This document shows, piece after piece, positions 35,730 to 56,050 of a DNA stretch of 64,000 nucleotides. Position numbers and translations under genes: made by a program. Positions within the stretch are counted from its first letter, which is position 1, and each line of letters starts with the position of its first letter. This DNA comes from Methanoplanus sp. FWC-SCC4. GTDB lineage: Archaea > Halobacteriota > Methanomicrobia > Methanomicrobiales > Methanomicrobiaceae. The stretch is taken from the NCBI RefSeq assembly GCF_032878975.1, contig NZ_CP043875.1:124001-188000 (forward strand), in the 5' to 3' direction. The notes under the pieces are model-generated. The model did no database searches, had not been told where the DNA came from, and saw only the letters and a list, made by a program, of their open reading frames with translations.

Positions 35730-38700
35730 TTATTTTCTTCTGGAAACCATTGCAATAGACAGAATCATTGCAATAACTCCAAATACCATAAGATATCCTG
35801 ATAAAAGCGGTGCTTTGTTAGATTTTGTGGTATCTTTGTTTGTGTTTGTATCCGGAGTGTTTTCATCTTTGTCCCGGTTGTTCACTGACTTTTCTTCGGT
35901 TGTTTTTGATGTGTCCGGTATGACAGAATCTTCTGCAAATATTGCAAAGTAACCGAATCTGTCTGTGTCTGCGTAGTAATTCAGAACTCCGTTTTCAGTA
36001 TCCTCATAAACAGTTGAGAGAGCCCTCCACTCTTCTTCTGAAGAGTCGTATATGAGGAGTTTAACTTTATCCGGTGATGCTTTGCAATCGTCCATCCAGG
36101 TTTCCGGTACTGAGAATTTTATGGTTGCCATTTCAATTGACCCGGGAGTGGTGTAGTAGTCTTTAATCACAATATACTGATAGACTGCTTCTTCTGGATT
36201 GTCTGCCCCGTCCGGCTTTTTACCTTTCTCAGTTGTAATCATTATCTTTGCAAGGTCTTCTTTTGGAAGAACCGAGACTGAGCTTACAGCTGACTGATCC
36301 AGTTCAAAAGTGACTTTTTCTCCTGCAATAATCTTTTCTGCAGAATCAATTCCAAGTGAGCTCTTTCCTCCTGATGTGTAAGAGCTGCTACTGCCTGTGT
36401 CCGGTGACGGGGTGTTTTCAGCAGTTACAGCTGCAAGACCAAATGTTGAAAGACCGTGTGGTGATACACCTTCAAACAACAGGTTATCTCCGTTGGTTCC
36501 TTTGTAGATTGTCTCTAAGACCTCTTTTGTGCCCTCTTCCGAAACACGGATGATTCTTACAGAATTAATTCCGCCGTTTGCGTCCACCCATGATTTTGGA
36601 ACAACCATGTTGATCTTTGCGGATTTGATATCCCTTCCGTTGTTAAGATTGGTTTTTACAATCTTCATTGAGTATGCAACGTCCTTTATTTTCAGACCTG
36701 CATTTGTTGCGGCAATCTGGAATGATGCACCTTCCTCGGGAGCTCCCTTCTCAATTGTTGTCTCAAGGGCCGCTGCGTCAGGTATGCCGTTTAATTCAAG
36801 CTCTACCGCTCCGGAAACCTGTCCGAGATCGCTTAACATGGTGTCAACGGGTGCTGTTTCAAGAACAATGTCGCTTACCTCTCCTGTAATCTCGTCTCCT
36901 TCTTCAGTTACAGGCTCGTCAGTCTCAAATTTAAGTCTGAAACCGTTGCCCGGAACTTCGATCTCAGTTCCGTTTGTTACAACAGCTTTGCCTTTCTTTA
37001 CCCTGACCTCTGTTTTGCCGTTTTCCTTCTTCGTCAAATTTGCATTAGATGAATCGATGACCTTTTTCTCTGTCTTTTTACCGTCATCGATGATCTCATC
37101 AGCATATCTGTTGTGTGGTTTTACAAGCGGGTATTCATCTATGTTTGCATCGTTGATTGTAAACGGAGTGTCTCCTATTCCGTTGCCGTCCTGGTCCTGA
37201 CCCTCATATCCTGTCCAGTAATTTCCAGCAAAATTTTTGAAATTCCGGCCATTGTAACTGTATGATGTCTGCGAGTTTTCCTTCCATATCTGGGCGGTAT
37301 TATCCCTGTCATATATGATTTTGTCTGACGGAACATTGAAGGAGTTCATTGAGAAGATGTTTCCTGTGGATTTAGCTCCTCCCATGTAAATTGCGGTATA
37401 GGATATCCGGGAAATATCATTTTTAATAAATCTGTTTCCTGTTGAAATACCAAGTATTCCAAAGACTCTCTGAGAATCGGTAATTGTGTTTGATTCAAGG
37501 AGATTGTTTACAGCACTGTTCAGGTAGAAAGCATACATTCTGCAGCTTACTGAATTGTTGGTGATTATGCTCTCTGATGAGCTGTCAATTCTGAATCCTG
37601 ATGTACTTGCGTCTGAAATTGTGTTTTTATCAGCTGTATTTTTATTTGCTGAGGAGAACCAGATACCGTTAGTTCCGCCCTTTACATTATTGTTGGAAAT
37701 TTCATTCTTTTCTGAGTTTGATTTTGCATAAATTCCTGTTCCTGATGATGATTTAGAGAAAACATAGTTGTCAGAAACCAAATTCTCTGATGAATCTTCA
37801 AGATATATGTGGTAAATTGAATTTTCCACTGTGTTGTCATGCAGGTTGTTTGAACCGCCGCCAATTGATGCAATACCAAACCATCCTGTATTGACAATGT
37901 TATCTGAAATTTCACATCCTGAAACACCGTTGAGCATTATGGCTGCATGGTTTCTTGTACTGAAATCTTTGGAACTGTAGCCTGCTGATACATTAAGTCC
38001 TGATATTTTCACATCATCAATTGATACAGTGATTGTGTCAATGTGTGTATCTGCCGGAATTATGTTCACCAAAGCAGGGTCATCTTCTGATTTAATTGTC
38101 AGGAATTTATCGATAACCAGGTTTTCTGTGTAGGTTCCGGGTTTTACAACAATTACATCCCAGTCATATGCAGCGCTTACTGCGTCAGTTAGGTTTTCAT
38201 AATCGCCGCTGCCTGAAGCATCAACATACCATGTTTTGGGCTGGTGGTCTGCCGGGACAACTCTGAGTATTGCTTTTCCGGAAAATGCATCTTTAGAGGC
38301 TGTTATGTTTGTATTTCCTGCTTTTGATGATGTAAACAGACCTGTTTTTATGTCAATTGTTCCTATGCTGTTGTCTTCAACTGACCATGTGATGTCTGTT
38401 ACATCCATTACATTGTCATACTGGTCATATACTGTTGCATTGAAATCCTGTTTTTCACCGGCACGGAGCACTGCAACATCAGGTGATACTGCGATGTCGT
38501 CAATCTTTGGAAGGTCTATTGTAATTTCACTGACACGGCGGCATTCCTGATTTGAGCCGACGAAGTTTAAAGGCCAGTATGTCATCTTTTGTCCTGCAGG
38601 TGAATCGTATATTGCTAATTCCCTGATCTCCTTCCCGTCGAGTCTGTATGCGAGAATGAGATTGTTAGCTTCAAGAAGTTCTGTGCTTCTTACAGTTACT

Positions 38701-41525
38701 GTTGTATCTCTGTCTCCTTTTCTGTGGCTGTATTTTCCGGGGATTGTTATTGTGTAACCTTTACCTGCAAGTTCTGTGTTGAAGGTATTTTCATCTTCGT
38801 CATCCACAAGACCAACTATGGTTTTAAGGCTTACACCTTCCCAGATTTTTCCCGTATAATCTGTGTATGATGCTGATTCATTCTTTGAGAGTGATATGAA
38901 CTGATCCTTTGTGATTATTTTCTGTTCTTCTGTGTTTACTGTAAGTGTCCAGTCTGATGATTCACCGACTGTTATGTCAGCACCTGCTGTAACACCTTTG
39001 ATTGTGATAGTGATTCTTGTATCTCCGGTTTTTAATGCCGTGAAGAGACCGTCACTGTCAATTGTTCCTATGGTGTTATCAGAAACAGACCATTCACATT
39101 TTGGATCTTCAATAATGACATTCGCATCGTCATATGCGGTAACCGTGAATTGCTGTAAGTCTCCCTGATAGAGTTCTTCAACAGTGTCTGGTATAAGAAC
39201 GATTCTTGAAGGAACTATGTCATTTTCACTGACTGTTACTTCTGTTGTTTTTGTTATATCGCCTGAGGAAACTGTTATTGTTGTTTTTCCTTCCTTATCT
39301 GATGTAAAAAGTCCTGATTTGTCAATAACTCCGACTGTTGCGTTTGAACTTGTCCATGTGAACTCTGTTGAAGGGATCTCGTATCCTTCTGCTGTCAGTC
39401 CCTTTGCTGAAAATTCAATTGTTTTCCCGGGGCGTATTGCCTTGTTTTCAGGCGAGAGTGTAATTTCTGAAAGGACAGGGTCGGATTCGATTACATTAAC
39501 TGTAATTTGTGAGGTTTTGCCGCCTGCACTGACACTGAGTTCGGTTGTGCCGGCTTTTACTGCTGTAAACAGTCCTGTATCAGTAACTGTACCGACTGTC
39601 GGGTCTGTTACTGACCATTCATAGTCGGTATTGTAAACTTTGCCTGATGTTGAATTCAGTGCAGATGCTGAAAACTGATATGTGGTATCCTTTTTGAGCA
39701 CCGGATTTGAAGGTGTGACTGCAACAGAGTCAACATACGGAACTTCACCTGTTACATAACATCCGCTTAAACCGTTGTTTGCCCATCCGATGATTCCGGG
39801 TGCCTGGTTGCTTGATGCAAGCCATCCGTAAATGTTGAATGTGGCAAAGGTTTCGAGTTTATTAAAGCTGTAGTCAACTTTGAGCATTCCGTGGTTGATG
39901 TCATCATTGTTGAATCCGACAATGCCTGTGTAGAGATCAATAAACATCAGTTTGTAGTCATTTTCCGTGTTTATATCCTGCCCGCTGTATAATGCGATGT
40001 TTTTAACTTTTGGAGGTCTCCATCCCTGTGGGGTGTATAAAAAGTCGTCCTTGTCAAATGTTTCAGTGTATGCTGCACCTACAAATGTTCTATTTGATAC
40101 ATCTGCTTCAGTCCACCTGTAACCGGTTGCGGTTATCTCCACTTCAAAGTCATCCGGAATTGTTCCGTTGACTGCAAGGAGCAGTATGGCGTTGTCCTTT
40201 CTTCCCTGTCCGCCTGTGTCGGTCAGATAAAATGTTCCTGTTGTAGAATTTGTTTTAATGATCTTTGGTGTTGCATCATCAGAAACGTCTGTGATTTTCA
40301 TTGCGTTTAGACCGCCGCCAAACTGCATGAAGTAGGTGTCATTTCCGTACTTGTCATATCTGGCGCCGTTTTCGTTGGATACTTTTACATAAAGACCGTT
40401 TTCCTCAGACATTGCACCGGGATCCACAATCTCATTTGCAACTGTTACTGATGCTGTTCCTTTTATTTCTCCGGCAGAGGCAACAATAGTTCCGCTGCCT
40501 TTTCCTGAGGAGGTGAAAAGTCCTTCCCCGTTAATTTCTCCGATTGCAGGATTTGTGAATGACCATGAAATTTCCACATTATTCATGGGTTTATTGTACT
40601 GATCATAAACAGTTGCAGAAAACTGCTGTGTTTTGCCGGGGTTTACAGTAATGATTCCCGGAGCAACCTCAACAGATATGGCTATTGGTTCACCTGGGAT
40701 GGGCGGTACTGTCTGTGAAATTAATATGCCGCCTTTATCTGCATCCTGTGTCCATTCTATGTTTTTAAGAGCGTTACGGTATCCATAGACACTAATTGCA
40801 GCAGCTGAGTTGAGATTACTAAAAGAGTATTCAACCTTTGCAAATCCGTTGTCAATAATCGTTGCATTGGCATCGAATTTTTCTTTGTTGATGGAACCCA
40901 CATTAAGGTCAATAAACATCAGGCTGAAAGTGTTTTCAGTGTCTGTCATGTTCTGGCCTTTGTATATCGGGTAATTGGCACATCCGGCAGGACGCCAGAT
41001 TTGCGGTCCGTATGTGAAGTTATCTTTTGTAAATGATGCTTTTAATGCACCTGATTTGTATGATATGTTTTCATACACAGGAGCTGCTTCTATAACGGAA
41101 TTTCCTTCCCACTGGTATCCGCTTGAGTTGATGTCAAGCCTGAAATCGTCAGGGATTGTTCCGTTGACTGCAACCATCAGCAAAAGTGCATCGTAGTACC
41201 CTTTTCCACCGTCTGTTGGCAGGAAGAAAGTTCCCTCTTTTTTACCAGTCTGAATAAAACTCTCGGTATCTCTTGAGAATTCCGGAGTTTCACTGACATG
41301 AAGTGCATTCAGACCCTGAAATTCACTTTTGAATAATATGTGATAGGTCTGATTTCCATAACTGTCATATGCGATACTGTTCTCCGCTTCGACATAAATG
41401 TCTGTGTGCGAAGGCAAGGTTGTAGTTTCTGCTGCTGCGGGGGATGCAAAAACTGCAACTGCCAGCAGGCAGATTAAAGCAAACAATGTCGTAAGCTTTA
41501 TATGGTCAATACTCTGTTTTCTCAT
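35730..41525 (-). CDS. Giant surface protein A: two-unit domains, Ig-like repeats, SUOX-like domain, beta-helix, PGF-pre-PGF domain
   Basis: This 1931-residue exported protein has a signal peptide at 1-32. Two copies of a two-unit surface domain follow at about 45-280 and 375-595 (markers: NALHVS, GTFFLPTDGG, NGTIPDDF, then YGPQIWRPAG, LMFIDL). Big_2-type Ig-like repeats lie at about 282-365, three between 595 and 855, and one at 1005-1095 (recurring VGTVTDTGLFTA-type turns). A domain resembling the sulfite-oxidase-type pterin fold lies at about 858-1005 but has no ligand Cys. A NosD-like parallel beta-helix opens with WYVDASGSGDYENL at about 1099-1480. A PGF-pre-PGF-type domain (about 1720-1858), an acidic/Thr linker and a C-terminal helix ending SRRK complete it. 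The final helix lacks a PGF motif. Likely a cell-envelope or adhesion protein. Confidence 0.85.
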   Translation of the reverse strand: MRKQSIDHIKLTTLFALICLLAVAVFASPAAAETTTLPSHTDIYVEAENSIAYDSYGNQTYHILFKSEFQGLNALHVSETPEFSRDTESFIQTGKKEGTFFLPTDGGKGYYDALLLMVAVNGTIPDDFRLDINSSGYQWEGNSVIEAAPVYENISYKSGALKASFTKDNFTYGPQIWRPAGCANYPIYKGQNMTDTENTFSLMFIDLNVGSINKEKFDANATIIDNGFAKVEYSFSNLNSAAAISVYGYRNALKNIEWTQDADKGGILISQTVPPIPGEPIAISVEVAPGIITVNPGKTQQFSATVYDQYNKPMNNVEISWSFTNPAIGEINGEGLFTSSGKGSGTIVASAGEIKGTASVTVANEIVDPGAMSEENGLYVKVSNENGARYDKYGNDTYFMQFGGGLNAMKITDVSDDATPKIIKTNSTTGTFYLTDTGGQGRKDNAILLLAVNGTIPDDFEVEITATGYRWTEADVSNRTFVGAAYTETFDKDDFLYTPQGWRPPKVKNIALYSGQDINTENDYKLMFIDLYTGIVGFNNDDINHGMLKVDYSFNKLETFATFNIYGWLASSNQAPGIIGWANNGLSGCYVTGEVPYVDSVAVTPSNPVLKKDTTYQFSASALNSTSGKVYNTDYEWSVTDPTVGTVTDTGLFTAVKAGTTELSVSAGGKTSQITVNVIESDPVLSEITLSPENKAIRPGKTIEFSAKGLTAEGYEIPSTEFTWTSSNATVGVIDKSGLFTSDKEGKTTITVSSGDITKTTEVTVSENDIVPSRIVLIPDTVEELYQGDLQQFTVTAYDDANVIIEDPKCEWSVSDNTIGTIDSDGLFTALKTGDTRITITIKGVTAGADITVGESSDWTLTVNTEEQKIITKDQFISLSKNESASYTDYTGKIWEGVSLKTIVGLVDDEDENTFNTELAGKGYTITIPGKYSHRKGDRDTTVTVRSTELLEANNLILAYRLDGKEIRELAIYDSPAGQKMTYWPLNFVGSNQECRRVSEITIDLPKIDDIAVSPDVAVLRAGEKQDFNATVYDQYDNVMDVTDITWSVEDNSIGTIDIKTGLFTSSKAGNTNITASKDAFSGKAILRVVPADHQPKTWYVDASGSGDYENLTDAVSAAYDWDVIVVKPGTYTENLVIDKFLTIKSEDDPALVNIIPADTHIDTITVSIDDVKISGLNVSAGYSSKDFSTRNHAAIMLNGVSGCEISDNIVNTGWFGIASIGGGSNNLHDNTVENSIYHIYLEDSSENLVSDNYVFSKSSSGTGIYAKSNSEKNEISNNNVKGGTNGIWFSSANKNTADKNTISDASTSGFRIDSSSESIITNNSVSCRMYAFYLNSAVNNLLESNTITDSQRVFGILGISTGNRFIKNDISRISYTAIYMGGAKSTGNIFSMNSFNVPSDKIIYDRDNTAQIWKENSQTSYSYNGRNFKNFAGNYWTGYEGQDQDGNGIGDTPFTINDANIDEYPLVKPHNRYADEIIDDGKKTEKKVIDSSNANLTKKENGKTEVRVKKGKAVVTNGTEIEVPGNGFRLKFETDEPVTEEGDEITGEVSDIVLETAPVDTMLSDLGQVSGAVELELNGIPDAAALETTIEKGAPEEGASFQIAATNAGLKIKDVAYSMKIVKTNLNNGRDIKSAKINMVVPKSWVDANGGINSVRIIRVSEEGTKEVLETIYKGTNGDNLLFEGVSPHGLSTFGLAAVTAENTPSPDTGSSSSYTSGGKSSLGIDSAEKIIAGEKVTFELDQSAVSSVSVLPKEDLAKIMITTEKGKKPDGADNPEEAVYQYIVIKDYYTTPGSIEMATIKFSVPETWMDDCKASPDKVKLLIYDSSEEEWRALSTVYEDTENGVLNYYADTDRFGYFAIFAEDSVIPDTSKTTEEKSVNNRDKDENTPDTNTNKDTTKSNKAPLLSGYLMVFGVIAMILSIAMVSRRK

Positions 41526-43850: not shown

Positions 43851-44555
43851 ATGACAATTTATCTTGCGATGGATGATACTGACAACCTTGACTCACGGGG
43901 CACCGGAAAACTTGCCCGTGCAGCGGCATCGGCAATTGCAAAAGAATACCCGGTAAAGGGAGTAACCCGGCATCAGCTTTTTGTTCATGAGGACATCCCT
44001 TTTACATCGCATAACAGCTGCGGTGTAATTCATATTGAGGCATCCGGAAACGATGCAAAGGAATGGATATTTGAAACCGCAAAGGAAGTCATGCTTGATG
44101 ACTTCATAGATGGCAGTGATCCCGGTATTGCAGTTGCCGGAAGAGAGGACATTAAGGAACCTCTGATATCCTTTGGACGTGATGCCCAGAGAGTTGTTTT
44201 GAACCAGGAAAAAGCCCGCACTCTTGCAAAGAATCTTGGGATCAGACTTGAAGGACTCGGAGGGACTGAAGACGGTGTCATTGGCACAATGGCGGGTCTG
44301 GGACTTGCATGCACCTTAAATGACGGACGTTACCTCATGCTTGGGAAAATACGCGAGATGACCGGCCCTGCCGAGGTTTCGACACTTCTTGATGCAGGAA
44401 TTGATGTGGTATACACAATGGATGGCAGAAGAGTTAACGATGGTCTTATAATAATTGCCGAGGGCAAATCTGCAAAGCCCTGTCCTGTTGACGGCAGGGC
44501 CGTTCTTTTCGTTGAAGAGATAGACGGCGAATATCATGCCGTAAAGAGAGGATAG
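43851..44555 (+). CDS. TiaS-related DDTD-motif protein at the head of an ECF transporter operon
   Basis: This 234-residue protein begins IYLAMDDTDNLDSRGTGKLAR, the ATP/Mg-binding start of the kinase-like domain of tRNA(Ile2)-agmatinylcytidine synthetase. It also has SHNSCGVIHIEASG, DPGIAVAG and LGGTEDGVIGTMAGLGLA. It is about half the length of TiaS and lacks the tRNA-binding OB and zinc-ribbon parts, so a small-molecule kinase or synthetase is more likely than tRNA modification. It is 10 bases upstream of the next gene and so probably in the operon with the ECF transporter. It is the third DDTD-motif protein in the window, besides the marker-11 pair. Confidence 0.75.
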   Translation: MTIYLAMDDTDNLDSRGTGKLARAAASAIAKEYPVKGVTRHQLFVHEDIPFTSHNSCGVIHIEASGNDAKEWIFETAKEVMLDDFIDGSDPGIAVAGREDIKEPLISFGRDAQRVVLNQEKARTLAKNLGIRLEGLGGTEDGVIGTMAGLGLACTLNDGRYLMLGKIREMTGPAEVSTLLDAGIDVVYTMDGRRVNDGLIIIAEGKSAKPCPVDGRAVLFVEEIDGEYHAVKRG

Positions 44556-44564: not shown

Positions 44565-45371
44565 ATGCAGCTTGAAAAGAAAATTGCTATCGGATTTGCG
44601 ATTGTAATTGTTTTTGCCGGTCTGATGGTTGCTGTTCAGTTTGGAGGCGAAGGGTGGCTTATGGAAAATCCGCCCGACAAACTGACGCAGGTGTATAAAA
44701 CCGGCATTAAAGCTGTATATGAGAAACCTGATTTTTCATACGGGCCAAATCACTGGCGTCCTTTTAAAGAACCCCTTATGATTAACCCTCCAAACGGAAG
44801 TTCTGATGATATGTGGTATCTCATGTTTATAAAGGCAAATGTGACACCATATGGTGGAAATCCGTATTTTCAGAGAAGGGGTTCTGTTTTGGTAAATTAC
44901 TCCTTTGAAAATCTTGCAGGAACAGCTGCATTTCATATAATCGGTTTTGAGGGCAATGATGCAAAATGCCGGACAAACAGGCAGGAGGGATATGGAGCAA
45001 ACGGGTATTTTGTCAGGGGGACAGCTCAGCCGGGAGATTCAATGCCTCCTACGCAGCCGTTAAAATCGCCGAATAACAATCCGGTGCTTCCGGCAGGTCT
45101 GCATGTTGATGAGGAAAAAGCAGGATTATATTCATATTTCCTTCACTTTGATCCTATGTCCGGGGGAATCGATGCTGTTCATATCACCAAAGATCCTAAA
45201 ATTATCAGAGGAAGTGTTATTGAAACAGATGATCAGTACGGTGAATTTTATATAACACACACGGGAGGCAGTATGCTTGAGGAGATACTGATTATTCTTG
45301 CCGTAAATGAAGCCCAGCCTGATGACTTTAAGCTAAAAATTGGTACATCTTTTGTTCCGGAGGATAACTGA
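44565..45371 (+). CDS. Membrane-anchored protein with the surface-domain units in reversed order
   Basis: This 268-residue protein has one N-terminal helix (IAIGFAIVIVFAGLMVAVQF), which could anchor it outside the cell. The rest contains the same two units as the giant surface proteins, but in the opposite order. The YGPNHWRPFK / YLMFIKANV / NYSFENLAGTAAFHIIGFE / GYFVRGTAQPG unit comes first (about 50-165). The DAVHITKDP / GEFYITHTGG / IILAVNEAQPDDFKLKIG unit comes second (about 180-262). It lies 2 bases before the ECF S-component gene and so may capture the transporter's substrate or assist it. The function is unknown. Confidence 0.7.
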   Translation: MQLEKKIAIGFAIVIVFAGLMVAVQFGGEGWLMENPPDKLTQVYKTGIKAVYEKPDFSYGPNHWRPFKEPLMINPPNGSSDDMWYLMFIKANVTPYGGNPYFQRRGSVLVNYSFENLAGTAAFHIIGFEGNDAKCRTNRQEGYGANGYFVRGTAQPGDSMPPTQPLKSPNNNPVLPAGLHVDEEKAGLYSYFLHFDPMSGGIDAVHITKDPKIIRGSVIETDDQYGEFYITHTGGSMLEEILIILAVNEAQPDDFKLKIGTSFVPEDN

Positions 45372-45373
45372 GA

Positions 45374-45916
45374 ATGAAAAAAGGTTATTTTTCCCTGTAT
45401 GAGATTGCCCTATTATCTCTTCTCGGTGCTTTGATATTTGTACTGAAGATTGTTCTTAAACTTCCTGTCCATGTACCGGGACACTCGGGAATATTCTGGA
45501 TGATCCCGCTGATTTTAGGTCTTGCTATTGTGAAAAAGCCCGGTGCTGCAACATATATGGGTCTGATATCCGGTATACTCACTTCCTTCTTTGGGATAGG
45601 TGCTTTGCATGTATTTGATATATTTGAATATCTCTCAATAGGGATTGCGACTGATATTTGTGGATATATCTTTTCTTATCGGTTTGAAAACCCCTTTGTG
45701 TCAGTGCTTACCGGAGTATGTGCAAACCTCTTCAGAATGGTTGTTAACTATTCTGTCCAGCTTCTGCTTGGTGTTCAGGGATTCTTCATCATTCTTGGAA
45801 TCGGTCTGAGTTCTGTTTCAAATATTATATTTGGCGGACTTGGTGGTCTGATTGCCGCCTTACTTATAAGAAAACTTATGACTGCGGGGGTTATCGGGGA
45901 AGATGAAACAGGGTGA
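45374..45916 (+). CDS. ECF transporter substrate-binding S component (substrate unknown)
   Basis: This 180-residue integral membrane protein has about six predicted helices. The N-terminal ALLSLLGALIFVLKIV and the VPGHSGIFWMIPLILGLAI stretch are typical of ECF S components, as are the GAATYMGLISGIL and FGGLGGLIAALLIRKL helices. It lacks the N-terminal MHIPDG-type motif of CbiM/NikM, so cobalt or nickel uptake is not indicated, and I cannot name the substrate. It overlaps the ATPase gene by 14 bases. The neighbours supply the ATPases and the T component for a complete importer. Confidence 0.82.
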   Translation: MKKGYFSLYEIALLSLLGALIFVLKIVLKLPVHVPGHSGIFWMIPLILGLAIVKKPGAATYMGLISGILTSFFGIGALHVFDIFEYLSIGIATDICGYIFSYRFENPFVSVLTGVCANLFRMVVNYSVQLLLGVQGFFIILGIGLSSVSNIIFGGLGGLIAALLIRKLMTAGVIGEDETG

Positions 45917-47405
45917 TCCGTTAATCCGCGTTTGTTCGCTTGATTATTCATACACCTCATCCATATTTCCCGGTAAAAAAGCACTTCAGGGAATTAGTCT
46001 TGAAATTTACCCTGGTGAAACTGTTTTAATTGCCGGGCCAAGCGGTTCGGGGAAATCTACTCTTATAAAATGTCTTAACGGCTTAATCCCCAACTCCGGG
46101 AAGGGAAAAATGACCGGGAAAGTATTCATTAACGGCATGGACACATCCGTACATTCCGTGCCTGAGATATCCCGGGTTTCGGGCTATGTATTTCAGAATC
46201 CTGATTATCAGATAATAACAAATGAGGTGGATTCAGAGATTGCTTTTGGGCCTGAACAGGCAGGTATTCCTCCAGAAGATATTGAGAAACGTATCTCCAG
46301 GGTTACGAATCTCCTTGGGATAACACACCTTCGCGGCCGTGAGACAACCGCCCTGTCATGGGGTGAGATGCAGAAGGTCGCTATTGCATCGGTTCTTGTA
46401 ATGGAACCGAAGATTCTTTTAATGGATGAGCCTTTCTCAGGCCTTGATTCTGAATCGGCATCTTACCTTTTGGGCATAATCAGGGATATTTCAAAAAGCG
46501 GCCGGATTGCAACAGTTATTATAGAGCACAGGGCTGATATGGCTTTATCATCCGTAAACCGGCTTGTTGCATTAAACTCAGGACAGATAATTTATGACGG
46601 CCCTGCCTGTGCATGTCCGGATGATATTATCGAAAAAATGGACGGAGGCTATGATCTCCCTTCCACGCAGTCAGGAAAGAATTACGGGGTGAGCAGCCCC
46701 GGTTTTGCCGGAGTCAGTTTTGGAAAACAGGATAATAAACCATCTGTTGTGTTAAGAGATGTTTCTTATCATTATCCGGGGAGCAGTAGTGATGCCCTCT
46801 GTTGTGTGAATGTATCATTTTACCCGTACGAGATTGTCGCAGTCTGCGGTGCGAACGGTTCGGGGAAAAGCACTCTGGCGAAGCACATCAATGGTCTTTT
46901 AAAGCCTGATTCCGGAGAGGTTTACATTTTTGATGAAAATATTGGCGGGAAAACCGTTGCTGAAGTTGCACGCTATGTCTCGCTTGTCTCACAGCATGCG
47001 GATTCGCAGCTTTTTGAGGAAACTATTGAAAGAGAACTTTCTTTCGGGCCAAAAAACCTTGGGTTTGATGAGCGGGAAACCGGTATGTCAGTTGATGAGG
47101 TCATGGAGCTTGTCGGAATTTCCCATCTTGGAAAAGGTGCAAGACCACTGAAACTCTCAGTAGGTGAGAAACAAAGAGTTGCAATTGCCAGTCACCTTAC
47201 TATGAAAGCGCCTGTTGTTATCATGGATGAGCCGACGCTGGGTCTTGATCTCCCACTGAAAAAAAGACTTGCAGAGACTCTAATATCAATGAAAAAAGAG
47301 GGTAAGTGCATAATTATCATAACACACGATATGAGGTTTGCAGATTTCTGTGCCGACAGGAAATATTTCTGTGAAAATGGCCGCATTTCCTGTATCAACA
47401 ACTGA
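45903..47405 (+). CDS. ECF transporter double ATPase (A and A' fused)
   Basis: This 500-residue protein has two complete ABC ATPase domains. The first has GPSGSGKSTLIKCLNG, signature SWGEMQKVAIAS, and LLMDEPFSGLD. The second has GANGSGKSTLAKHINGLL, signature SVGEKQRVAIAS, and VIMDEPTLGLD. Both signature loops deviate from LSGGQ at the same positions. It energises uptake by the S and T components encoded on either side. Confidence 0.92.
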   Translation: MKQGDPLIRVCSLDYSYTSSIFPGKKALQGISLEIYPGETVLIAGPSGSGKSTLIKCLNGLIPNSGKGKMTGKVFINGMDTSVHSVPEISRVSGYVFQNPDYQIITNEVDSEIAFGPEQAGIPPEDIEKRISRVTNLLGITHLRGRETTALSWGEMQKVAIASVLVMEPKILLMDEPFSGLDSESASYLLGIIRDISKSGRIATVIIEHRADMALSSVNRLVALNSGQIIYDGPACACPDDIIEKMDGGYDLPSTQSGKNYGVSSPGFAGVSFGKQDNKPSVVLRDVSYHYPGSSSDALCCVNVSFYPYEIVAVCGANGSGKSTLAKHINGLLKPDSGEVYIFDENIGGKTVAEVARYVSLVSQHADSQLFEETIERELSFGPKNLGFDERETGMSVDEVMELVGISHLGKGARPLKLSVGEKQRVAIASHLTMKAPVVIMDEPTLGLDLPLKKRLAETLISMKKEGKCIIIITHDMRFADFCADRKYFCENGRISCINN

Positions 47406-47420: not shown

Positions 47421-48233
47421 ATGTTTTTTAAGAAACCGGGCGAAAAAAACAAAAAAATGAAGAAGGGTATCTGCTATATTCAAAAAGATTCCCCTGTACA
47501 CAGACTTGACCCCCGGACAAAACTCTTAATCCTGATTTTACTCAGCGTTTCTGTACTTATTGATGCAAATCTTCTACGGACACTTCTTCTTTTTGGTGTT
47601 GTTTTGTTTGCAGCATATATTTCAGGTCTGTTCTCAAAATGGGCCGGCGCACTCCGGTACATTCTGCCTTTTATGATCTTCATTGTCGTAATTGACGCCT
47701 TTTTTTGCTCTTTTCATTCCGGTACTGAGTTTTTTTCTGCTGATTTCTGGATATTTCATCCGAGGGTGACTGAAGGGAGTGTGAATTTTGCTGCATCAAT
47801 GGGTGTTCGTCTTCTTGCAATTGGCGGTTTTTCATTTCTTTTTATTATGACAACATCATACAGTGATTTTGTAAAAAGTCTTCAGGCAATGAAAATTCCC
47901 CGTATGCTCTCATTTTCTCTTGGATTTGCACTGAAATCTATCACATCGCTTTCAGGGGATTTACATGCCATTATGGATGCACAGCGCTCAAGGGGCCTTG
48001 AGTTTGACAGGGATTCCATAATTAAAAACAGTGACAAAATGTTTTCATTATTTGTTCCTATGACAGTCTCGGTTATGAACAGATCGTCTAATGTATGTGA
48101 CGCAATGCAGTGCAGGGGTTATGGTAGTTGCAGGGAACCGACTGTCCATAATCCTCCTGTTTATGGAAAAAATGATTTTATTGCTGTTTTTTTTGTTCTA
48201 ATATACATAATTTTCATACATTTTTTTTTGTGA
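47421..48233 (+). CDS. ECF transporter transmembrane T component (CbiQ/EcfT family)
   Basis: This 270-residue membrane protein has VHRLDPRTKLLILILLSVSV near the start, further helices (IFIVVIDAFFCSFHSG, LLAIGGFSFLFIMTTS), and the coupling region SLQAMKIPRMLSFSLGFALK with AQRSRGLEFD, where EcfT binds the ATPases. It completes the ECF module (S, double A, T). The start at 47421 gives a short basic extension before the conserved region, so a later start (Met-13) is possible. Confidence 0.9.
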   Translation: MFFKKPGEKNKKMKKGICYIQKDSPVHRLDPRTKLLILILLSVSVLIDANLLRTLLLFGVVLFAAYISGLFSKWAGALRYILPFMIFIVVIDAFFCSFHSGTEFFSADFWIFHPRVTEGSVNFAASMGVRLLAIGGFSFLFIMTTSYSDFVKSLQAMKIPRMLSFSLGFALKSITSLSGDLHAIMDAQRSRGLEFDRDSIIKNSDKMFSLFVPMTVSVMNRSSNVCDAMQCRGYGSCREPTVHNPPVYGKNDFIAVFFVLIYIIFIHFFL

Positions 48234-48469: not shown

Positions 48470-51112
48470 ATGTATGAGCCTATGAAGAAAAATACCCTGT
48501 TAAAAAAAATAATTGTCGCACTGATAATTATTTCATTTGGGATCCAGACTGCACCTGCAGCAGATCTTCCGTCAAATAACCTTCCCGATGCATATCATGT
48601 AAACATAGATACGGCAAACTCCGGAGGATATTATATAAAGTTTGACGGAGGTGGATTAAATGCCCTCCATATTACAACAAGCACCTCTGAGGAGTACGGG
48701 CAGGTTACAACGACCTCATCTAACTCCGGAACATTTTATATTTCCGACACCGGTGGAAGAGGATTTTTCAATGACATGATTTTGATGGTTGCCATCAAAA
48801 AGCCGGCGGGGGAAGAATCTCTTCCTGAAGATATGAATATCAGAATTAAATCAAGCGGTTTTCAGTGGGAACCGACAGGAGCGATAAATAAGCCTCCTGC
48901 AATTGATGCTGTAAGATACGTCGAAGGAGCAATTGATGAATCATATGGATTAAGTTCTCTTTCTTACGGTCCTCAGAAGTGGAAGGCAGCCGGTATTGAA
49001 AACTCTCCTAAGAATTACCCGATATACTTCGGGCAGGATATGGGAAATGGGGATGATCTTTTTTACTTCTTCTTTGTCGATTTAAAGGTTGGAAACCTTG
49101 GAAGAAGCAGTGGTATTAACTCTGTTCTGCAAAACAAGGGTATGATCAAGGTTGAGTATTCGGTTGAAAACCTTGATGACGGCCTGATTTCGTTTAACAG
49201 TTACGGATGGTGTGATGACTTACAGTCCAATCAGGGAAAGGGAATCTCCTGGACCAATGCCCTTACAGGTCCCACCCCGAGCGGCTACACGGTAAAACTG
49301 GGAACCGGAGGGGGCGGTGAAGGCAGCGGTTCTTCATCCGGAGCAATAGACTATGGTGACAGCGGTTCCGACTCACAGCCGGATCTCCCAAAGGTCGGGA
49401 ACCTGAATATTACATCGGAACCGGCAGGTGCAAAGGTCTTCCTTGATGGTGCTTTCACAGGAGAGGTGACAAATGCATCTTTTACCGATCTCCCGACAGG
49501 AGATTACGGTGTTTACCTTGAACTTGAAAATTATGAAAGAACTGATAAGAGATGGGTAACAATCAGAGGCGGATATGTATCTGAAGAGAATTTCAATCTT
49601 ACCCTGGAAAAAAGTTCCTGCTTTGTTGAATCAGTCCCCAAAGGCGCTGATATATTCCTTGACGGGACAGATACCCTGTGGCATACGGATTGTGAGTTAG
49701 ATAATATTGAGGTTGGAAATCATACTATAACGGTCTCAAAGCCGGGATTTTTGGCTGTTTCCAGAAATGTGAGCATTGAAGCTGATAAAACGGCTCATAT
49801 TTCCGTAAACCTGAATTCCGGAGAAGTGGATGAGATTAGTAATAATGAGGCAGGAGATAAAACCGGTGATTTTAGTAAACCGGAAACAAAAATCCCGACA
49901 GATAAGAAAACTCCTCAAAAAGAAGGGAATGCTTCCTTTGCAGAGTCATCCTTAAAAGCTACACCTGCTATTGATAACAAAGATTATGGGAAATCCCCGG
50001 ATCCTGTCGTCAGTGAAGAAGGTGGCATTGTCGAAGGATTCATAGGCTTTTTAAATTCGCTGATTTTTGGTGAAAACCCTGAAAATAAGGATGAGAGAGT
50101 TTCCCCGGGGTATAATACAGGGGAGCAGGCGGCCAATCTGAATAATCCCGTTCAGACTCAGGAAAATAATCCGGGGATTTTGAACCTTTCCGGAGAAGAA
50201 ATACCGGAATTTTTGCCTGAAGAAAAGACGGGGACAGTCTATGTGACATCCTATCCTGAAAATCTGCCGATAAAGTTTGACGGAAAAGACTCCGGATATT
50301 TTACTCCCCATCTGTTTTACGGGGTAAAAGAGGGTATTCACAAAGTTGGTGTTGTAATAACCGGTGATTCAACAAAAACGGTTGAAGAGGACGTCCGTGT
50401 GTTTAAAGCTGAAAATCTGGTAATTCACCTTGAACCAGAGAAGTACAGGAAAAAAGTGAGTGTTAACTTAAAATCAAAGGATTTCAGAAATTTGGAATTT
50501 AAGATAGGTGACAAAAATCCTGAATACAGTTTCCCCCAGCTGCTCACAGTCGACAACACCGGTACATATGTGACTGTTTTTGATGAGGGCAGATATTATT
50601 CCTATAATCCGGGTACCCTTTCAGAAGGGGAGGATGTATGGGTAACAAGGAACAGCAATTTTGGAAAGGTTAGTATTAATTCAAAGCCGGAAGGGGCGAA
50701 TATTTTTGTAAACGGTTACGATACCGGGGAGAAGACCCCTGCTGTCCTGGATACTCTCTCAGAGGGTCATCATCAGGTTCAGGTTTCAATGGATGGATAT
50801 TACCCTCAGAAAAAAGAGCTTGTAATGGTTGATTCAAAGGATGAAATCGACTATGAGATGAGATTCCTTTTGTCTGAATATCCGTACGGGGTTTTGTCTG
50901 TAAACAGTGAGCCCGAAGGGTGCAATATTTATCTTAGGGGAAGTTACACAGGCAAAAAGACACCTTATACTTTTGAATATATGCCGATTGGAAGTTATGA
51001 TGTGATGGTCATGTATAACAGAACCATAACGGAAGAAAAAGAGGTAACTGTTCTTCCATTTGATGAAGCAGGTATAATAAGCTGCAATGTCACGATGGCA
51101 GAATTAATATAA
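48470..51112 (+). CDS. Exported protein with one two-unit surface domain and about five PEGA repeats
   Basis: This 880-residue protein has a signal peptide (KIIVALIIISFGIQTAPAAD), then one two-unit surface domain (about 30-280: NALHITTSTS, GTFYISDTGGRG, YGPQKWKAAG, YPIYFGQDMG, GISWTNALTG). PEGA repeats follow. Two abut (LNITSEPAGAKVFLDGAFTG; FVESVPKGADIFLDGTDTL). A third lies near residue 585 (VYVTSYPENLPIKFDG). Two are near the C-terminus (VSINSKPEGANIFVNGYDTG; LSVNSEPEGCNIYLRGSYTG). The regions between are acidic and Ser/Pro/Lys-rich. No C-terminal membrane helix is seen, so it may be released or bound by other surface proteins. An alternative start at Met-5 (48482) is possible. Confidence 0.82.
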   Translation: MYEPMKKNTLLKKIIVALIIISFGIQTAPAADLPSNNLPDAYHVNIDTANSGGYYIKFDGGGLNALHITTSTSEEYGQVTTTSSNSGTFYISDTGGRGFFNDMILMVAIKKPAGEESLPEDMNIRIKSSGFQWEPTGAINKPPAIDAVRYVEGAIDESYGLSSLSYGPQKWKAAGIENSPKNYPIYFGQDMGNGDDLFYFFFVDLKVGNLGRSSGINSVLQNKGMIKVEYSVENLDDGLISFNSYGWCDDLQSNQGKGISWTNALTGPTPSGYTVKLGTGGGGEGSGSSSGAIDYGDSGSDSQPDLPKVGNLNITSEPAGAKVFLDGAFTGEVTNASFTDLPTGDYGVYLELENYERTDKRWVTIRGGYVSEENFNLTLEKSSCFVESVPKGADIFLDGTDTLWHTDCELDNIEVGNHTITVSKPGFLAVSRNVSIEADKTAHISVNLNSGEVDEISNNEAGDKTGDFSKPETKIPTDKKTPQKEGNASFAESSLKATPAIDNKDYGKSPDPVVSEEGGIVEGFIGFLNSLIFGENPENKDERVSPGYNTGEQAANLNNPVQTQENNPGILNLSGEEIPEFLPEEKTGTVYVTSYPENLPIKFDGKDSGYFTPHLFYGVKEGIHKVGVVITGDSTKTVEEDVRVFKAENLVIHLEPEKYRKKVSVNLKSKDFRNLEFKIGDKNPEYSFPQLLTVDNTGTYVTVFDEGRYYSYNPGTLSEGEDVWVTRNSNFGKVSINSKPEGANIFVNGYDTGEKTPAVLDTLSEGHHQVQVSMDGYYPQKKELVMVDSKDEIDYEMRFLLSEYPYGVLSVNSEPEGCNIYLRGSYTGKKTPYTFEYMPIGSYDVMVMYNRTITEEKEVTVLPFDEAGIISCNVTMAELI

Positions 51113-51222: not shown

Positions 51223-52224
51223 ATGGATTTTAAAAAATCTGGTTTAATTCTGGTATTAATTGTACTGGCTGGTGCCATTTTTATGGCAGGCTGTACCGGT
51301 ACACAGAGCACCGGGGATGCTACCCCTGCTGCAACAGAGGCAGTGGCAACAGCAGAGCAGACTCCGGCAGCTTCTGAAGATAATGTATTGTTAATTGCAA
51401 CAACAACAAGCCTTGATGCAACAGGACTTCTTGCACAGCTTGAAACAGAGTTTGAAGAGAAAACAGGCGCTGATGTTCAGATAACAGCAGTCGGAACAGG
51501 AAAGGCTCTTGAATTCGGAAACAACGGAGATGTCGACCTTTTAATGGTACACGACCGTTCTCGTGAGAATGCATTCCTTGACGCAGGATCAGGCATTGAG
51601 CGCCGTGTCTTTGCATTTAACTACTTTGTAATTATCGGTCCGGAGAGTGACCCCGCAGGTATCAAAGGAATGGCACCTGGAGATGCTCTTGTAACAATAA
51701 TGGAGAAAGGCAAGGAAGACGAGAATGTCAAGTTCGTTTCCCGTGGTGACGGTTCCGGAACACACGGTAAAGAGAAAGCTCTCTGGAAGGCTGTAGGCCT
51801 TGACTATGACGAAAACGAACCTGTCTGGGTAAAGGAAGACTGGTATGTTGAGGCTGGTGCAGGTATGGGAACAACTCTTACAATGGCTGACGAGATGAAT
51901 GCCTACACATTAAGTGATATCGGAACTTTCCTCAAATACAAGGGAGACGAAACAATTTCACTTGTGGAACTTGTAAATGAGGGTGACGCACTCATAAACA
52001 TTTACAGTGCAATGATAATCAGCCCTGAAAAATACCCTGACACCAACGTAAAGCTCAGCAAGGAATGGATCAATTTCATGACCTCTGACGGCGTTCAGGA
52101 AGAGATCAAGGTATTTGGTGTTGAAGCATACGGACAGCCGCTCTTCTTCCCTGCAAAAGGTGCAGTTGATATCCTTTCACCTTCAGGTGTTACACAGGAA
52201 GAAATTTCAGCAGCTGTTGTATGA
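51223..52224 (+). CDS. tupA: Tungstate ABC transporter substrate-binding lipoprotein
   Basis: This 333-residue lipoprotein has a lipobox (FMAGCTGT) and a Thr/Ala-rich linker. The TupA core has LLIATTTSLDATGLL near residue 55, followed by GTGKALEFGNNGDVDLLMVHD, SRGDGSGTHGKEKALW and the TLSDIGTFL region. TupA proteins are highly selective for tungstate over molybdate. Binding would occur outside the cell for import by TupBC. The gene is followed by a T7 run before tupB, which may reduce read-through so that more binding protein is made. No clear Shine-Dalgarno sequence lies before the ATG, so translation may be leaderless. Confidence 0.92.
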   Translation: MDFKKSGLILVLIVLAGAIFMAGCTGTQSTGDATPAATEAVATAEQTPAASEDNVLLIATTTSLDATGLLAQLETEFEEKTGADVQITAVGTGKALEFGNNGDVDLLMVHDRSRENAFLDAGSGIERRVFAFNYFVIIGPESDPAGIKGMAPGDALVTIMEKGKEDENVKFVSRGDGSGTHGKEKALWKAVGLDYDENEPVWVKEDWYVEAGAGMGTTLTMADEMNAYTLSDIGTFLKYKGDETISLVELVNEGDALINIYSAMIISPEKYPDTNVKLSKEWINFMTSDGVQEEIKVFGVEAYGQPLFFPAKGAVDILSPSGVTQEEISAAVV

Positions 52225-52238
52225 ATTTAAAACTTAAC

Positions 52239-52245
52239 TTTTTTT
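52239..52245 (+). terminator. Oligo-T run between tupA and tupB
   Basis: Seven T bases follow the tupA stop by about 15 bases. The counterpart after wtpA (55228-55234) is in the same relative position. Partial termination at both sites would favour binding-protein production. Confidence 0.35.
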
Positions 52246-52272
52246 ATTATCAGATTTAATTGGAAAGAAGCT

Positions 52273-52959
52273 ATGGGCTACATTACTGAAGGTGTTCAGC
52301 AGGCATTAGTGTTGATACTGACCCTGGATCCTGAAGTTGTTGACATAACACTGAGGACTCTCTCAATTACATTCAGTGCAACAATAATTGCGTCAATAAT
52401 AGCCGTGCCTCTTGGGCTTTATATATCATTTCATGAATTTCCCGCGAAAAAAGCCTTAATTAGCCTGATTCAGACCCTTTATGCCCTGCCGACCGTTGTG
52501 GTGGGTCTGCTTATGTATATGCTTTTTACAAAAAACGGTCCTCTGGGAGCTTTTAGCCTCCTATTCACTCCTACCGGAATGATAATCGGCCAGACCGTTT
52601 TGATAATGCCGATTATTACAGGCCTTACAATAGCAGCACTTTCAAGCCTTGACCGCGGAGTAAAGGATACGTCAAGATCCCTTGGTGCAACCGCGTTGCA
52701 GTTCTTTGCATCAATGGTAAAAGAAGCCCGTTTTGCCATCCTTTCAGCTGTCGTGATGGGATTTTCCCGTGCAATATCAGAGGTCGGTGCCGCCATACTT
52801 ATAGGAGGAAATATAAGGGGGCAGACGAGGATTTTAACCACGACGATTACTCTTGAAACTGGTCAGGGTAATTTTTCGTTGTCAATTGCTCTTGGTATAA
52901 TTCTCCTTTTAATTGCCTTAATTGTGAATATGCTTATGTCCTATTTCCAGCAGAGGTGA
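52273..52959 (+). CDS. tupB: Tungstate ABC transporter permease
   Basis: This 228-residue permease has about five helices. The cytoplasmic coupling loop is in LGATALQFFASMVKEARFAILSAVVMGFSRAISEVGAA, with EVGAAILIGGNI as the family marker. Length and gene order fit TupB. It overlaps tupC by 4 bases. Confidence 0.9.
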   Translation: MGYITEGVQQALVLILTLDPEVVDITLRTLSITFSATIIASIIAVPLGLYISFHEFPAKKALISLIQTLYALPTVVVGLLMYMLFTKNGPLGAFSLLFTPTGMIIGQTVLIMPIITGLTIAALSSLDRGVKDTSRSLGATALQFFASMVKEARFAILSAVVMGFSRAISEVGAAILIGGNIRGQTRILTTTITLETGQGNFSLSIALGIILLLIALIVNMLMSYFQQR

Positions 52960-54080
52960 ACGGTTTGTTTAAAATACATGGTCTTTACAAAAAATTCGGC
53001 GAGAAACAGGTTTTAAACGGTGTTGATCTTGAGATCAAAAAAGGTGAGGTATTTACAATAATCGGGCCTTCGGGTCAGGGGAAGTCGACGCTTCTTCGTA
53101 TAATGAACCTTCTTGAAACACCTACCTCGGGCAGTGTCATATTTGACGGGAAAGATCTTTTTGAGGGCGGCAGGGTTTCCGTTGATATGAAAAGACGGAT
53201 GGGAATGGTCTTTCAGAATCCTACGGCCTTCAATATGAATGTATTTGATAATGTTGCGCTCGGCCTTAAATACAGAGGTCTAAAAAAGGCTGAAATAAAG
53301 GAGAAAGTAGAAGAGGCACTTTTGGAGATTGGCCTGTCCGGGTATGAAAAACGACTTGCCAAAACACTTTCAGGCGGTGAAATGCAGAGGGTCTCTCTTG
53401 CAAGGGCGATTGTGACCGAGCCCGACATTCTTTTCATGGACGAGCCGACTGCAAGTCTTGATCCTGTAAACACTGAAAAAATTGAAGATCTGATTCATTA
53501 CTATAACAAAGAGAAGGGAATAACGATTGTAATGTCAACGCATGATCTTATGCAGGGTCAGAGGCTTGCAGACAGGATTGGCGTCATGATAGAGGGTGTA
53601 TTTTATCAGAAGGGAACACCCGATGAGGTATTTTCAAAACCTGCAAACGAGAGTGTTGCCAGATTTATCGGCATCAACAATATAATATATGGAAAAGTAA
53701 TCCGGCGCGAAGAAGGCGGGAAACATGCAATTTTGAAAGCAGGTGGTGTTGAAATACTGGTGATGACCGGATTTTCACAGGGAAGCCGTGTATCAGCCTG
53801 CATACGCCCTGAGGAGATTACGGTTCATCATAAAAGAATTGAGATGGTCAGGGGTAGAAATATAATCTCCGGGATTGTTTCGGGTATTTCACGACAGGGA
53901 AGGCTGATTTTTGCCGATGTGGACTGCGGTGCCGGTCTTAATATAAGTGCCCTCGTAACATGGGAACAGTTTGAGAGCCTTAGTCTGAAAAAAGGAGATG
54001 AGGTATTCCTATCATTTAAACCCAGATCAGTTCATGTTATGGAAAAAATAGATGGATCTGGGGAAGAGGCGTTTAATTAA
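52956..54080 (+). CDS. tupC: Tungstate ABC transporter ATPase
   Basis: This 374-residue ATPase has Walker A GPSGQGKST, signature LSGGEMQRVSLARAI, Walker B ILFMDEPTASLD, and a C-terminal extension of about 130 residues (ISGIVSGISRQGRLIFADVD) resembling a TOBE-like oxyanion-sensing domain. Such domains can inhibit transport when the metal is plentiful. The ATG overlaps the tupB stop. Confidence 0.9.
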   Translation: MNGLFKIHGLYKKFGEKQVLNGVDLEIKKGEVFTIIGPSGQGKSTLLRIMNLLETPTSGSVIFDGKDLFEGGRVSVDMKRRMGMVFQNPTAFNMNVFDNVALGLKYRGLKKAEIKEKVEEALLEIGLSGYEKRLAKTLSGGEMQRVSLARAIVTEPDILFMDEPTASLDPVNTEKIEDLIHYYNKEKGITIVMSTHDLMQGQRLADRIGVMIEGVFYQKGTPDEVFSKPANESVARFIGINNIIYGKVIRREEGGKHAILKAGGVEILVMTGFSQGSRVSACIRPEEITVHHKRIEMVRGRNIISGIVSGISRQGRLIFADVDCGAGLNISALVTWEQFESLSLKKGDEVFLSFKPRSVHVMEKIDGSGEEAFN

Positions 54081-54144
54081 CCTGATTAACAAAAATAGGC
54101 CTGAATAAATAGTTTTTTTTAAAATAAGGCTCAGAATTAAACTG

Positions 54145-55218
54145 ATGAAAAAATTCTCATCTTTTATTCTGGTTTTAGCCATTATCTGTGCGGTTGTTTT
54201 TATATCAGGCTGCACAGGCAGCGGTGAAAAGGTATCGGGGGATCAGCAGGGGCAGCCTGCGGCAACAGCAGTCCCTGCAGAGAAGAGTGTGCTTAAGGTA
54301 TTCCATGCCGGCAGTCTTGCCGCTCCTATGGAAGAGATGGAAGCAGCATTTGAGGATAAATACCCGGGCGTTGATGTCCAGCTTTATGCAGGCGGAAGCA
54401 CAAAGCTTGCAAAAGAGATTGTTGAACTTGGAAAGCCTGCAGATGTTTTTGCTTCAGCGGATTACTCACTTATACCCGGTCTTATGGTGCCTGACTACGC
54501 ATCATGGTATGCAACATTTGCAAAGAACAGAATGGTTCTGTGCTTTACAGACAAGAGCAAATTTGCAGATGAGGTAAATGCAGACAACTGGTATGAGGTT
54601 CTTGGCCGTGAGGGAGTTGCATGGGCGTTTTCAGATCCAAACCTTGACCCGTGCGGATACCGTTCACTCATGACAATCCAGCTTGCTGAATCTAACTACA
54701 ATGACGATCAGATTTTTGACAACCTTGTTGGAAAGAACAGTAAGATTACAACCACGATAGAAGACGGTGTGACAACCATTCATGCAACTGAACCCGAACC
54801 AGTCTTCCCGCTTACAATTGATCCAAAGAGTGTAAATCTTATTTCCGGTCTTCAGGCAGGAAATCTTGACTATGCATGGGAATACAGAAGTGTTGCAGAA
54901 CAGAATGCAGAGTCCGGTATAAAATACATCGAACTTCCCGAAGCTGTTGATCTTTCATCCATTGATTTCAAGGACACATACGCATCAGTTCAGGTTGAAT
55001 CAAGTGGTGGAATGAAGAAAGGCAAGCCTATTGTTTACGGTGTTACAGTACCAACATCGGCAGACCAGCCGGAAAACGGTGAAAAGTTTGTTGAGATGCT
55101 TGTCGGAGAGACCGGTCAGGATATCATGACAAAGGCAGGCCAGCCTCCGATTGTTCCTGCAAACGGATTTTTGGAAGTTCCTGCAGGTCTTCAGTCAGTT
55201 CTTGCAGTAGCAAACTAA
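54145..55218 (+). CDS. wtpA: Tungstate/molybdate-binding lipoprotein (WtpA/ModA)
   Basis: This 357-residue lipoprotein has a lipobox (FISGCTGS). The oxyanion-binding core begins LKVFHAGSLAAPMEEMEAAF. Further stretches are YAGGSTKLAKEIVELGKPAD, DVFASADYSLIPGLM, FSDPNLDPCGYRS and LDYAWEYRSVAEQ. This matches the archaeal WtpA type, which holds tungstate or molybdate in octahedral coordination. It is distinct from TupA and gives the cell two different oxyanion importers. Confidence 0.92.
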   Translation: MKKFSSFILVLAIICAVVFISGCTGSGEKVSGDQQGQPAATAVPAEKSVLKVFHAGSLAAPMEEMEAAFEDKYPGVDVQLYAGGSTKLAKEIVELGKPADVFASADYSLIPGLMVPDYASWYATFAKNRMVLCFTDKSKFADEVNADNWYEVLGREGVAWAFSDPNLDPCGYRSLMTIQLAESNYNDDQIFDNLVGKNSKITTTIEDGVTTIHATEPEPVFPLTIDPKSVNLISGLQAGNLDYAWEYRSVAEQNAESGIKYIELPEAVDLSSIDFKDTYASVQVESSGGMKKGKPIVYGVTVPTSADQPENGEKFVEMLVGETGQDIMTKAGQPPIVPANGFLEVPAGLQSVLAVAN

Positions 55219-55227
55219 AAAAATCAC

Positions 55228-55234
55228 TTTTTTT
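55228..55234 (+). terminator. Oligo-T run between wtpA and wtpB
   Basis: Seven T bases lie between the wtpA stop and the wtpB start at 55238, mirroring the arrangement after tupA. Confidence 0.35.
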
Positions 55235-55237
55235 ATC

Positions 55238-56050
55238 ATGTTTAAAAAATCCAGTATTCCGGACAGCTGTATCATCTCTTTTTCGCTTATCGGCGGTCTT
55301 ATTGTATTTTTAACATTTATTTCATTGTTAAATCTTGGAGTTACACAGGCAGGTGACATACCTAATCTGATATCGGTTGCATCGGAGTCTAAAGTAATTG
55401 ATTCAGTTCTTCTTACCATGATGGCAGGGCTAACTGCCGTCATACTTTTGCTTGTGACCGGAATTCCGCTCGCATATGTTCTTGCAAGGGTTGATTTCAG
55501 GGGGAAGGGTCTTGTAGAGAGCCTTGTTGACCTTCCTGTTATGCTCCCTCACACTGTTGCCGGAATTCTTGTTTATATTCTTTTCATGAGAAGGGGAATT
55601 ATAGGAGGGCCGCTTGGGGAGGCGGGAATTGTTTTTGAGGATGCCTACCTTGGGATTGTTATGGCGATGTTTTTTGTCTCATCTCCTTATTTTATAAACA
55701 CTGTCAGAGAAGGCTTTGAAAAAGTGCCTGTTCATATGGAGAATGTTGCAAGGACGCTTGGTGCAACAAGGTTTACGGCATTTAGGAAGGTCGTTCTTCC
55801 TTTAAGTACAAGGCACATTTTAAACGGGTGCATTCTTGCATGGGGAAGGGCAATAGGAGAGTTTGCAGCCGTTATCATGATAGCCTATTATCCTATGATA
55901 ATTTCAACGCTGATTTACTACAGGTTTACAACAAGCGGCCTTAAAGAGAGCAGCACGATTGCCTTTATCATAATAGTAATCTGTCTTCTGGTCTTTGCAG
56001 GTCTGAGATACGTTATGAAGTATGCGGGGAAGTATGATGATAGAGTTTGA
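55238..56050 (+). CDS. wtpB: Tungstate/molybdate ABC transporter permease
   Basis: This 270-residue permease has about six helices. The N-terminal FSLIGGLIVFLTFISLLNL and the LVDLPVMLPHTVAGILVYIL stretch are typical of ModB/WtpB. The coupling loop is in VARTLGATRFTAFRKVVLP, followed by AWGRAIGEFAAVIMIAYYP. It overlaps wtpC. Confidence 0.92.
   Translation: MFKKSSIPDSCIISFSLIGGLIVFLTFISLLNLGVTQAGDIPNLISVASESKVIDSVLLTMMAGLTAVILLLVTGIPLAYVLARVDFRGKGLVESLVDLPVMLPHTVAGILVYILFMRRGIIGGPLGEAGIVFEDAYLGIVMAMFFVSSPYFINTVREGFEKVPVHMENVARTLGATRFTAFRKVVLPLSTRHILNGCILAWGRAIGEFAAVIMIAYYPMIISTLIYYRFTTSGLKESSTIAFIIIVICLLVFAGLRYVMKYAGKYDDRV

Follow-up and report, generated by a model that had tools for sequence, protein, structure and literature searches.

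The protein encoded at positions 44565 to 45371 of the window, by which we refer to the entire analysed stretch of 64,000 nucleotides, is a predicted membrane-anchored extracellular protein (here termed D), which combines the two units of a domain found in large surface proteins in reversed order and whose linkage to the genes of an ECF importer is essentially absolute. As judged from sequence comparison, a single ancient circular permutation is the likeliest relation between D and the normal copies of the domain, in which unit 1 precedes unit 2. In our preferred reading, which we consider evenly poised between right and wrong, D, which has its domain in common with the surface proteins, would serve a dedicated ECF importer as anchored receptor or accessory component, with a molybdenum or tungsten species as most likely ligand. 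The genome under study consists of a single contig of 2.31 Mb, and its named relatives include Methanogenium, Methanofollis, Methanoculleus and Methanoregulaceae, which places it in the order Methanomicrobiales. The features of the region are:

31047–35409, minus strand: MoxR, DUF58, VWA and BatD-like genes, which adjoin the D operon in most genomes
35730–41525, minus strand: giant surface protein with two normal copies (about 40701–41408 and 39732–40403), Big_2, beta-helix and a C-terminal hydrophobic anchor
43851–44555, plus strand: TiaS-like (TCKD-kinase-like) protein, first gene of the operon (PF22641 weak, 0.07; TIGR03280 8e-8, far under the cut-off)
44565–45371, plus strand: D, ATG start, 268 amino acids, predicted anchored extracellular protein with unit 2 followed by unit 1
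44571–44666, plus strand: N-terminal membrane anchor of D, residues 3–34 (AlphaFold helix; hydrophobic stretch after basic residues kept in orthologs)
44700–45032, plus strand: unit 2 of D, residues 46–156 (HMM i-Evalue 6.7e-15)
45117–45347, plus strand: unit 1 of D, residues 185–261 (HMM i-Evalue 7.9e-16)
45374–45916, plus strand: ECF S-component (PF09819, 6.1e-10)
45903–47405, plus strand: ECF A-component with two fused ATPase domains (TIGR04521 and TIGR04520 above cut-off)
47421–48233, plus strand: ECF T-component (PF02361, 6e-29)
48470–51112, plus strand: surface protein with one normal copy (residues about 41–277) and PEGA repeats
51223–57110, plus strand: tungstate transporters TupABC and WtpABC (WtpA exceeds the NCBIfam cut-off; TupA is the best match yet below cut-off)
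57279–63209, minus strand: giant surface protein with two normal copies (about 62451–63125 and 61272–62021), Big_2, beta-helix and a C-terminal hydrophobic anchor
63432–64000, continuing beyond the window end to G000:C1:188244, minus strand: standalone secreted normal-order protein of 270 amino acids (L001 2433–3245)

The unit structure of D was characterized with an HMM built from the five complete normal copies of the window and with separate models of either unit (Z = 1000). Positions 105–234 of the model match residues 33–153 of D (i-Evalue 8.6e-14) and positions 19–94 match residues 185–261 (i-Evalue 4.3e-15), so that the order of the two pieces is reversed, whereas unit 1 precedes unit 2 in all other complete copies of the window (5/5). 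The observation of the first-pass annotation that unit 2 comes first in D is thus borne out by the HMM and by the D proteins across the order, and the reversal is not a matter of chance, since the remaining D proteins of the order share it and no other member of the family does. Searches with D did not yield any match in Pfam up to an E-value of 1 or in NCBIfam up to 0.1, Pfam searches did not detect a NEAT domain in either D or the surface proteins, and a PDB sequence search with D, the normal domain and the S-component did not retrieve a convincing match. The N-terminus of D is basic and is followed in the AlphaFold model by a single hydrophobic helix (residues 3–34), and the anchor region does not contain a cysteine for a lipid anchor. 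For these reasons, D is most naturally read as a protein with an uncleaved membrane anchor, whose domain would reside outside of the cell.

D is part of an operon on a single strand, in which the genes coding for the TiaS-like protein, D, the S-component, the fused A-component and the T-component follow each other with junctions of mostly –4 to +5 nucleotides. As noted earlier from the sequence, D ends 2 bases before the open reading frame of the S-component, which starts at 45374. Latter reaches 39.7 bits against PF09819 (curated cut-off 25.2), which is also matched by 17 of 17 orthologs with an E-value of 0.01 or better. As in group I ECF transporters, S-, T- and A-components are found in a single operon (PF09819, PF02361 and TIGR04520/04521; consecutive, mostly overlapping genes). 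As for the accessory subunits CbiN, NikN and NikK/NikL, an extracytoplasmic component is encoded beside S, here provided by D with its predicted anchor and domain. The S gene was detected in 40 copies in 39 of the 232 genomes of the order and D is located directly upstream of all 40, thus demonstrating a conserved ECF linkage in other genomes. The operon occurs in five of the order's families, by the numbering of the tool, and is further found in a genome from outside of the order (G257), which contains the whole operon with a permuted D and no surface copies. The pair of D and ECF genes thus constitutes a self-contained unit, for which surface copies are dispensable. Distances of D, S, T and the TiaS-like protein are correlated, with r between 0.75 and 0.89 and a largest value of 0.29 after shuffling, which fits joint inheritance, although shared species descent gives the same signal. 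The TiaS-like protein contains conserved DDTD and GLGGTEDGVIG motifs, and its gene precedes D in almost every locus of sufficient length. The MoxR-DUF58-VWA-BatD-like operon beside the D operon occurs in either orientation.

The operon resembles the group I ECF transporter YkoEDC, where a PF09819 S-component, a fused double ATPase (YkoD) and a dedicated T-component are combined in one operon, and whose S-component YkoE, the studied member of PF09819, is assigned to thiamine precursors. Unlike YkoEDC, it includes a TiaS-like gene and, as an obligatory element, the gene for the anchored extracellular beta-sandwich protein D, and a riboswitch was not found. As a component in addition to S, A and T, D is comparable to CbiN, NikN and NikK/NikL of Co/Ni ECF transporters, for which we know of no description of a domain common to giant surface proteins. 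Unlike these proteins, D does not belong to a recognizable family, as it has no Pfam match; the accessory proteins of Co/Ni ECF transporters in turn differ in sequence between systems (PMC2667541). The occurrence of one domain family in both a membrane-proximal protein and a number of surface proteins is reminiscent of the Isd/NEAT haem relay, although the domain family is a different one and the membrane-proximal copy is circularly permuted. In Staphylococcus lugdunensis, the genes of the ECF haem transporter Lha, which works independently of Isd, are found among surface-receptor genes (PMC7299338). Unlike in Isd and Lha, there is no pointer towards haem in the present system beyond a CfbC-like neighbour in one genus.

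The association of the operon with the surface proteins is pronounced. Among 135 near-complete genomes, normal copies are present in 30 of 30 with the operon and in 3 of 105 without it (Fisher p 6e-27, with genomes counted as independent). The three exceptions are G081, where the match is weak, G095 and G118, which contains a surface copy in absence of both D and ECF genes. Within the 18 genomes used for this comparison, 71 of the 81 normal copies among the best matches listed are found within 30 kb of D compared to 1.9 expected, with copies inside one gene not being independent, and each genome contains at least one normal copy within this distance (18/18). D and the surface copies are identical at 21 near-invariant positions, including His206 (100 and 95%). 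The first-pass annotation had suggested a small molecule as ligand of the domain and its transfer to the importer, and had considered that the giant proteins may share this type of ligand. These assumptions are plausible and have become more likely in light of the described co-occurrence, gene clustering and common near-invariant residues. A physical contact between D and S, ligand binding and handover, as well as the identity of the ligand discussed below, are inferred. An unannotated segment of about 150 residues (38502–38954 and 60303–60746; WTL...IWEGVSL) is found between Big_2 repeats in both giant proteins of the window, and no PDB sequence match was obtained for the copy at 38502–38954. 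The standalone normal copy at the window edge adjoins MOT1-like, ModABC, MosAB-like and mcr genes.

Molybdenum and tungsten are suggested as ligands by the genomic neighbourhood. In a survey of 15 genomes, the seven with D carry a TiaS-like gene exclusively in the D operon, whereas three of the eight without D also carry it, and in all three (G144, G056 and G100) it is found among molybdate and tungstate genes. In G144, it adjoins MOT1 and a MosAB-like gene with TupBC being nearby, in G056 it is located between TupABC and a MosAB-like gene in a region that also contains MOT1 and Wtp, and in G100 it follows Wtp, Mod and MOT1. In these assignments, MOT1 was called by PF16983, WtpA and ModA score above NCBIfam cut-offs, and the MosAB label is the least certain, as the protein was recognized by eye as member of the amino-acid-kinase family. 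In the genome under study as well as in G119 and G120, TupA directly follows a surface copy. In the latter two, the ECF region continues via this surface copy, TupABC, WtpABC, MOT1, ModABC and MosAB-like genes, much as in the genome under study. In one locus of G120 (L101, G120:C1:3008228-3010770), an insertion-like open reading frame of 388 amino acids on the opposite strand splits wtpB and the adjoining tupABC is intact. Of 17 genomes, 11 encode a close WtpB homolog at a distance of up to 65 kb from D, with six of the 11 belonging to one genus. The known uptake systems Tup, Wtp, Mod and MOT1 are thus neighbours of the present system in several lineages and have the TiaS-like gene in common with it, although latter system combines an ECF architecture with surface proteins and does not contain a soluble binding protein.

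In four genomes of one genus (G085, G086, G088 and G091), surface copies adjoin Ftr and the Fwd/Hdr operon of formylmethanofuran dehydrogenase, an enzyme that uses molybdenum or tungsten; two members of the order, one Methanogenium and one Methanocorpusculum species, are reported to need tungsten for growth (PMC3439257). In the window, formylmethanofuran dehydrogenase is represented by two gene clusters, and two MoeA-like genes are present as well. The two gene sets, located between 11420 and 25100, are of opposite orientation, and one of them includes FwdF, HdrABC and an MvhD-like gene. A placement of all outlying surface copies beside molybdenum or tungsten genes was rejected: it holds for four of eight loci, all from one genus, and does not apply to G089, G111, G158 and G195. 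The molybdenum and tungsten neighbours are lineage-dependent, and their co-location may reflect a mere clustering of methanogenesis genes. In other lineages, the neighbours of the D operon are CfbC-like and NifD/K-like genes or a HypB-like GTPase. In a locus of one genus (L048, 13936–16847), the ECF operon is followed on the opposite strand by a NifH-like gene scoring as CfbC and by a pair of NifD/K-like genes, neither of which scores as CfbD, and in one lineage (L060, 15411–17820) a surface copy is followed by genes coding for an ABC ATPase, a HypB-like GTPase and an Fe-S protein.

Taken together, molybdenum or tungsten is probably the leading ligand candidate. In the mechanism that we envisage, surface copies positioned on long stalks at the cell periphery would bind or concentrate the ligand, D as extracellular, membrane-anchored receptor or accessory subunit of an ECF importer of Methanomicrobiales (S, fused A and T) would take it or present it to the adjacent S-component, and the ECF module would import it, with the ligand most likely being a molybdenum or tungsten species required for formylmethanofuran dehydrogenase. 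A more specific version, which is possible but on balance doubtful, describes a relay from surface to membrane, where giant proteins and the permuted ECF receptor take up a form of molybdenum or tungsten that is ill-handled by Tup, Wtp and Mod, such as a thio-anion or a chelate. We know of no ECF importer for oxyanions, and giant archaeal surface proteins are, to our knowledge, mostly without assigned function. Such a relay would thus be the first ECF importer for molybdenum or tungsten and provide the first assigned role for such giant surface proteins, as far as we know. We infer that the domain ties these giant proteins to nutrient capture, and their function becomes testable through the one-to-one genetic link with a defined importer. 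If the ligand were molybdenum or tungsten, the system would bear on the metal supply of formylmethanofuran dehydrogenase, which acts in the first step from CO2 to methane in hydrogenotrophic methanogens.

We have considered, as a rather unlikely alternative, that the importer and D as its receptor carry an organic micronutrient, such as a thiamine precursor, another vitamin or a tetrapyrrole (for example a corrinoid or an F430 precursor), and that the molybdenum and tungsten neighbours are coincidental. The match of all 17 S-component orthologs to PF09819, a family also matched in B. subtilis, and the fused double ATPase as in YkoD would both be expected in this case, as would the CfbC-like and NifD/K-like genes adjoining the operon in one genus, and haem transport by an ECF system is known (PMC7299338). 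However, all 24 genomes examined encode ThiC, irrespective of whether they contain the system, which speaks against thiamine auxotrophy as explanation, Rfam searches did not detect any riboswitch as a clue to the ligand in either the window or seven related loci, and the TiaS-like gene resides in molybdenum/tungsten loci of three genomes lacking D. It is distinctly more improbable that the domain is a module for protein–protein docking or assembly, through which surface copies would contact one another or D, and that D would tether a portion of the surface layer to the importer with no ligand being handed over. Such a role would conform to the many copies that a genome encodes on stalk-like proteins containing Big_2, PEGA and beta-helix domains, to the generic beta-sandwiches including adhesins and CBMs among the weak structural matches, and to the MoxR/DUF58/VWA/BatD operon adjacent in most genomes, whereas the presence of D and ECF genes in G257 without any surface copy and the strict tie of D to one S family (40/40) argue against it.

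The reversed order itself was investigated at the level of predicted structure and phylogeny. The AlphaFold2 model of a normal copy depicts a confident single body (pLDDT 88.1, pTM 0.89), and the one of D is a fair model of moderate confidence (pLDDT 79.4, pTM 0.76), for which fragments covering single units of normal copies were part of the alignment; the outside sequences that entered the folding came from only seven loci of a profile search with a narrower alignment. In both models, single beta-sandwich domains from the PDB of about 110–120 residues align across both units, which suggests that the units build one shared beta-sandwich core. Foldseek and VIA-align retrieved generic beta-sandwiches only, including adhesins and CBMs, with best Z-scores of 7.6 for the normal copy and 7.0 for D, and since these values are within the range of common arrangements, no fold family was assigned. 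Two independent domains are not favoured by the models, and neither of the two outcomes named as refuting in the first-pass annotation, separate domains lacking a common interface or a missing conservation of the ECF linkage, was obtained.

Permuted D proteins are found 35 times within Methanomicrobiales and once outside, and the remaining 55 copies are of normal order. In 35 loci around D orthologs, unit 2 precedes unit 1 in every intact D and unit 1 precedes unit 2 in every other two-unit member; one D (L044, from a draft genome) is split by a frameshift. In a tree without outgroup, for which the units were aligned separately so that their order had no influence on the result, the 36 permuted copies group together with a support of 0.976 and are separated from the 55 normal copies, pointing to one ancient permutation. 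The deepest permuted copy is D of G257, the genome from another order. In this copy, unit 1 retains its entire N-terminal end (model 2–94, 3e-33), the new ends are located in the former linker between unit 1 and unit 2 and the old ends are joined by a linker, as predicted for a circular permutation. All 36 permuted proteins combine a reversed order with homology of both parts to the parent. The first-pass annotation had left circular permutation and unit shuffling as options, and a shuffling of two independent domains, as might be conceived since the HMM can model the units separately and the confidence of the D model is moderate, is very improbable in view of the single body of the normal model, the fold matches across both units, the termini in the old linker, the consistent pairing of units except in broken or truncated open reading frames and the single permuted clade. 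The strict split between permuted importer-linked and unpermuted surface copies provides a clean natural case of a permutation tied to a change of role. Tandem arrays are the usual intermediate in circular permutation, and they exist in the family, as illustrated by a surface protein (L050_62) with three normal copies, two of which almost abut.
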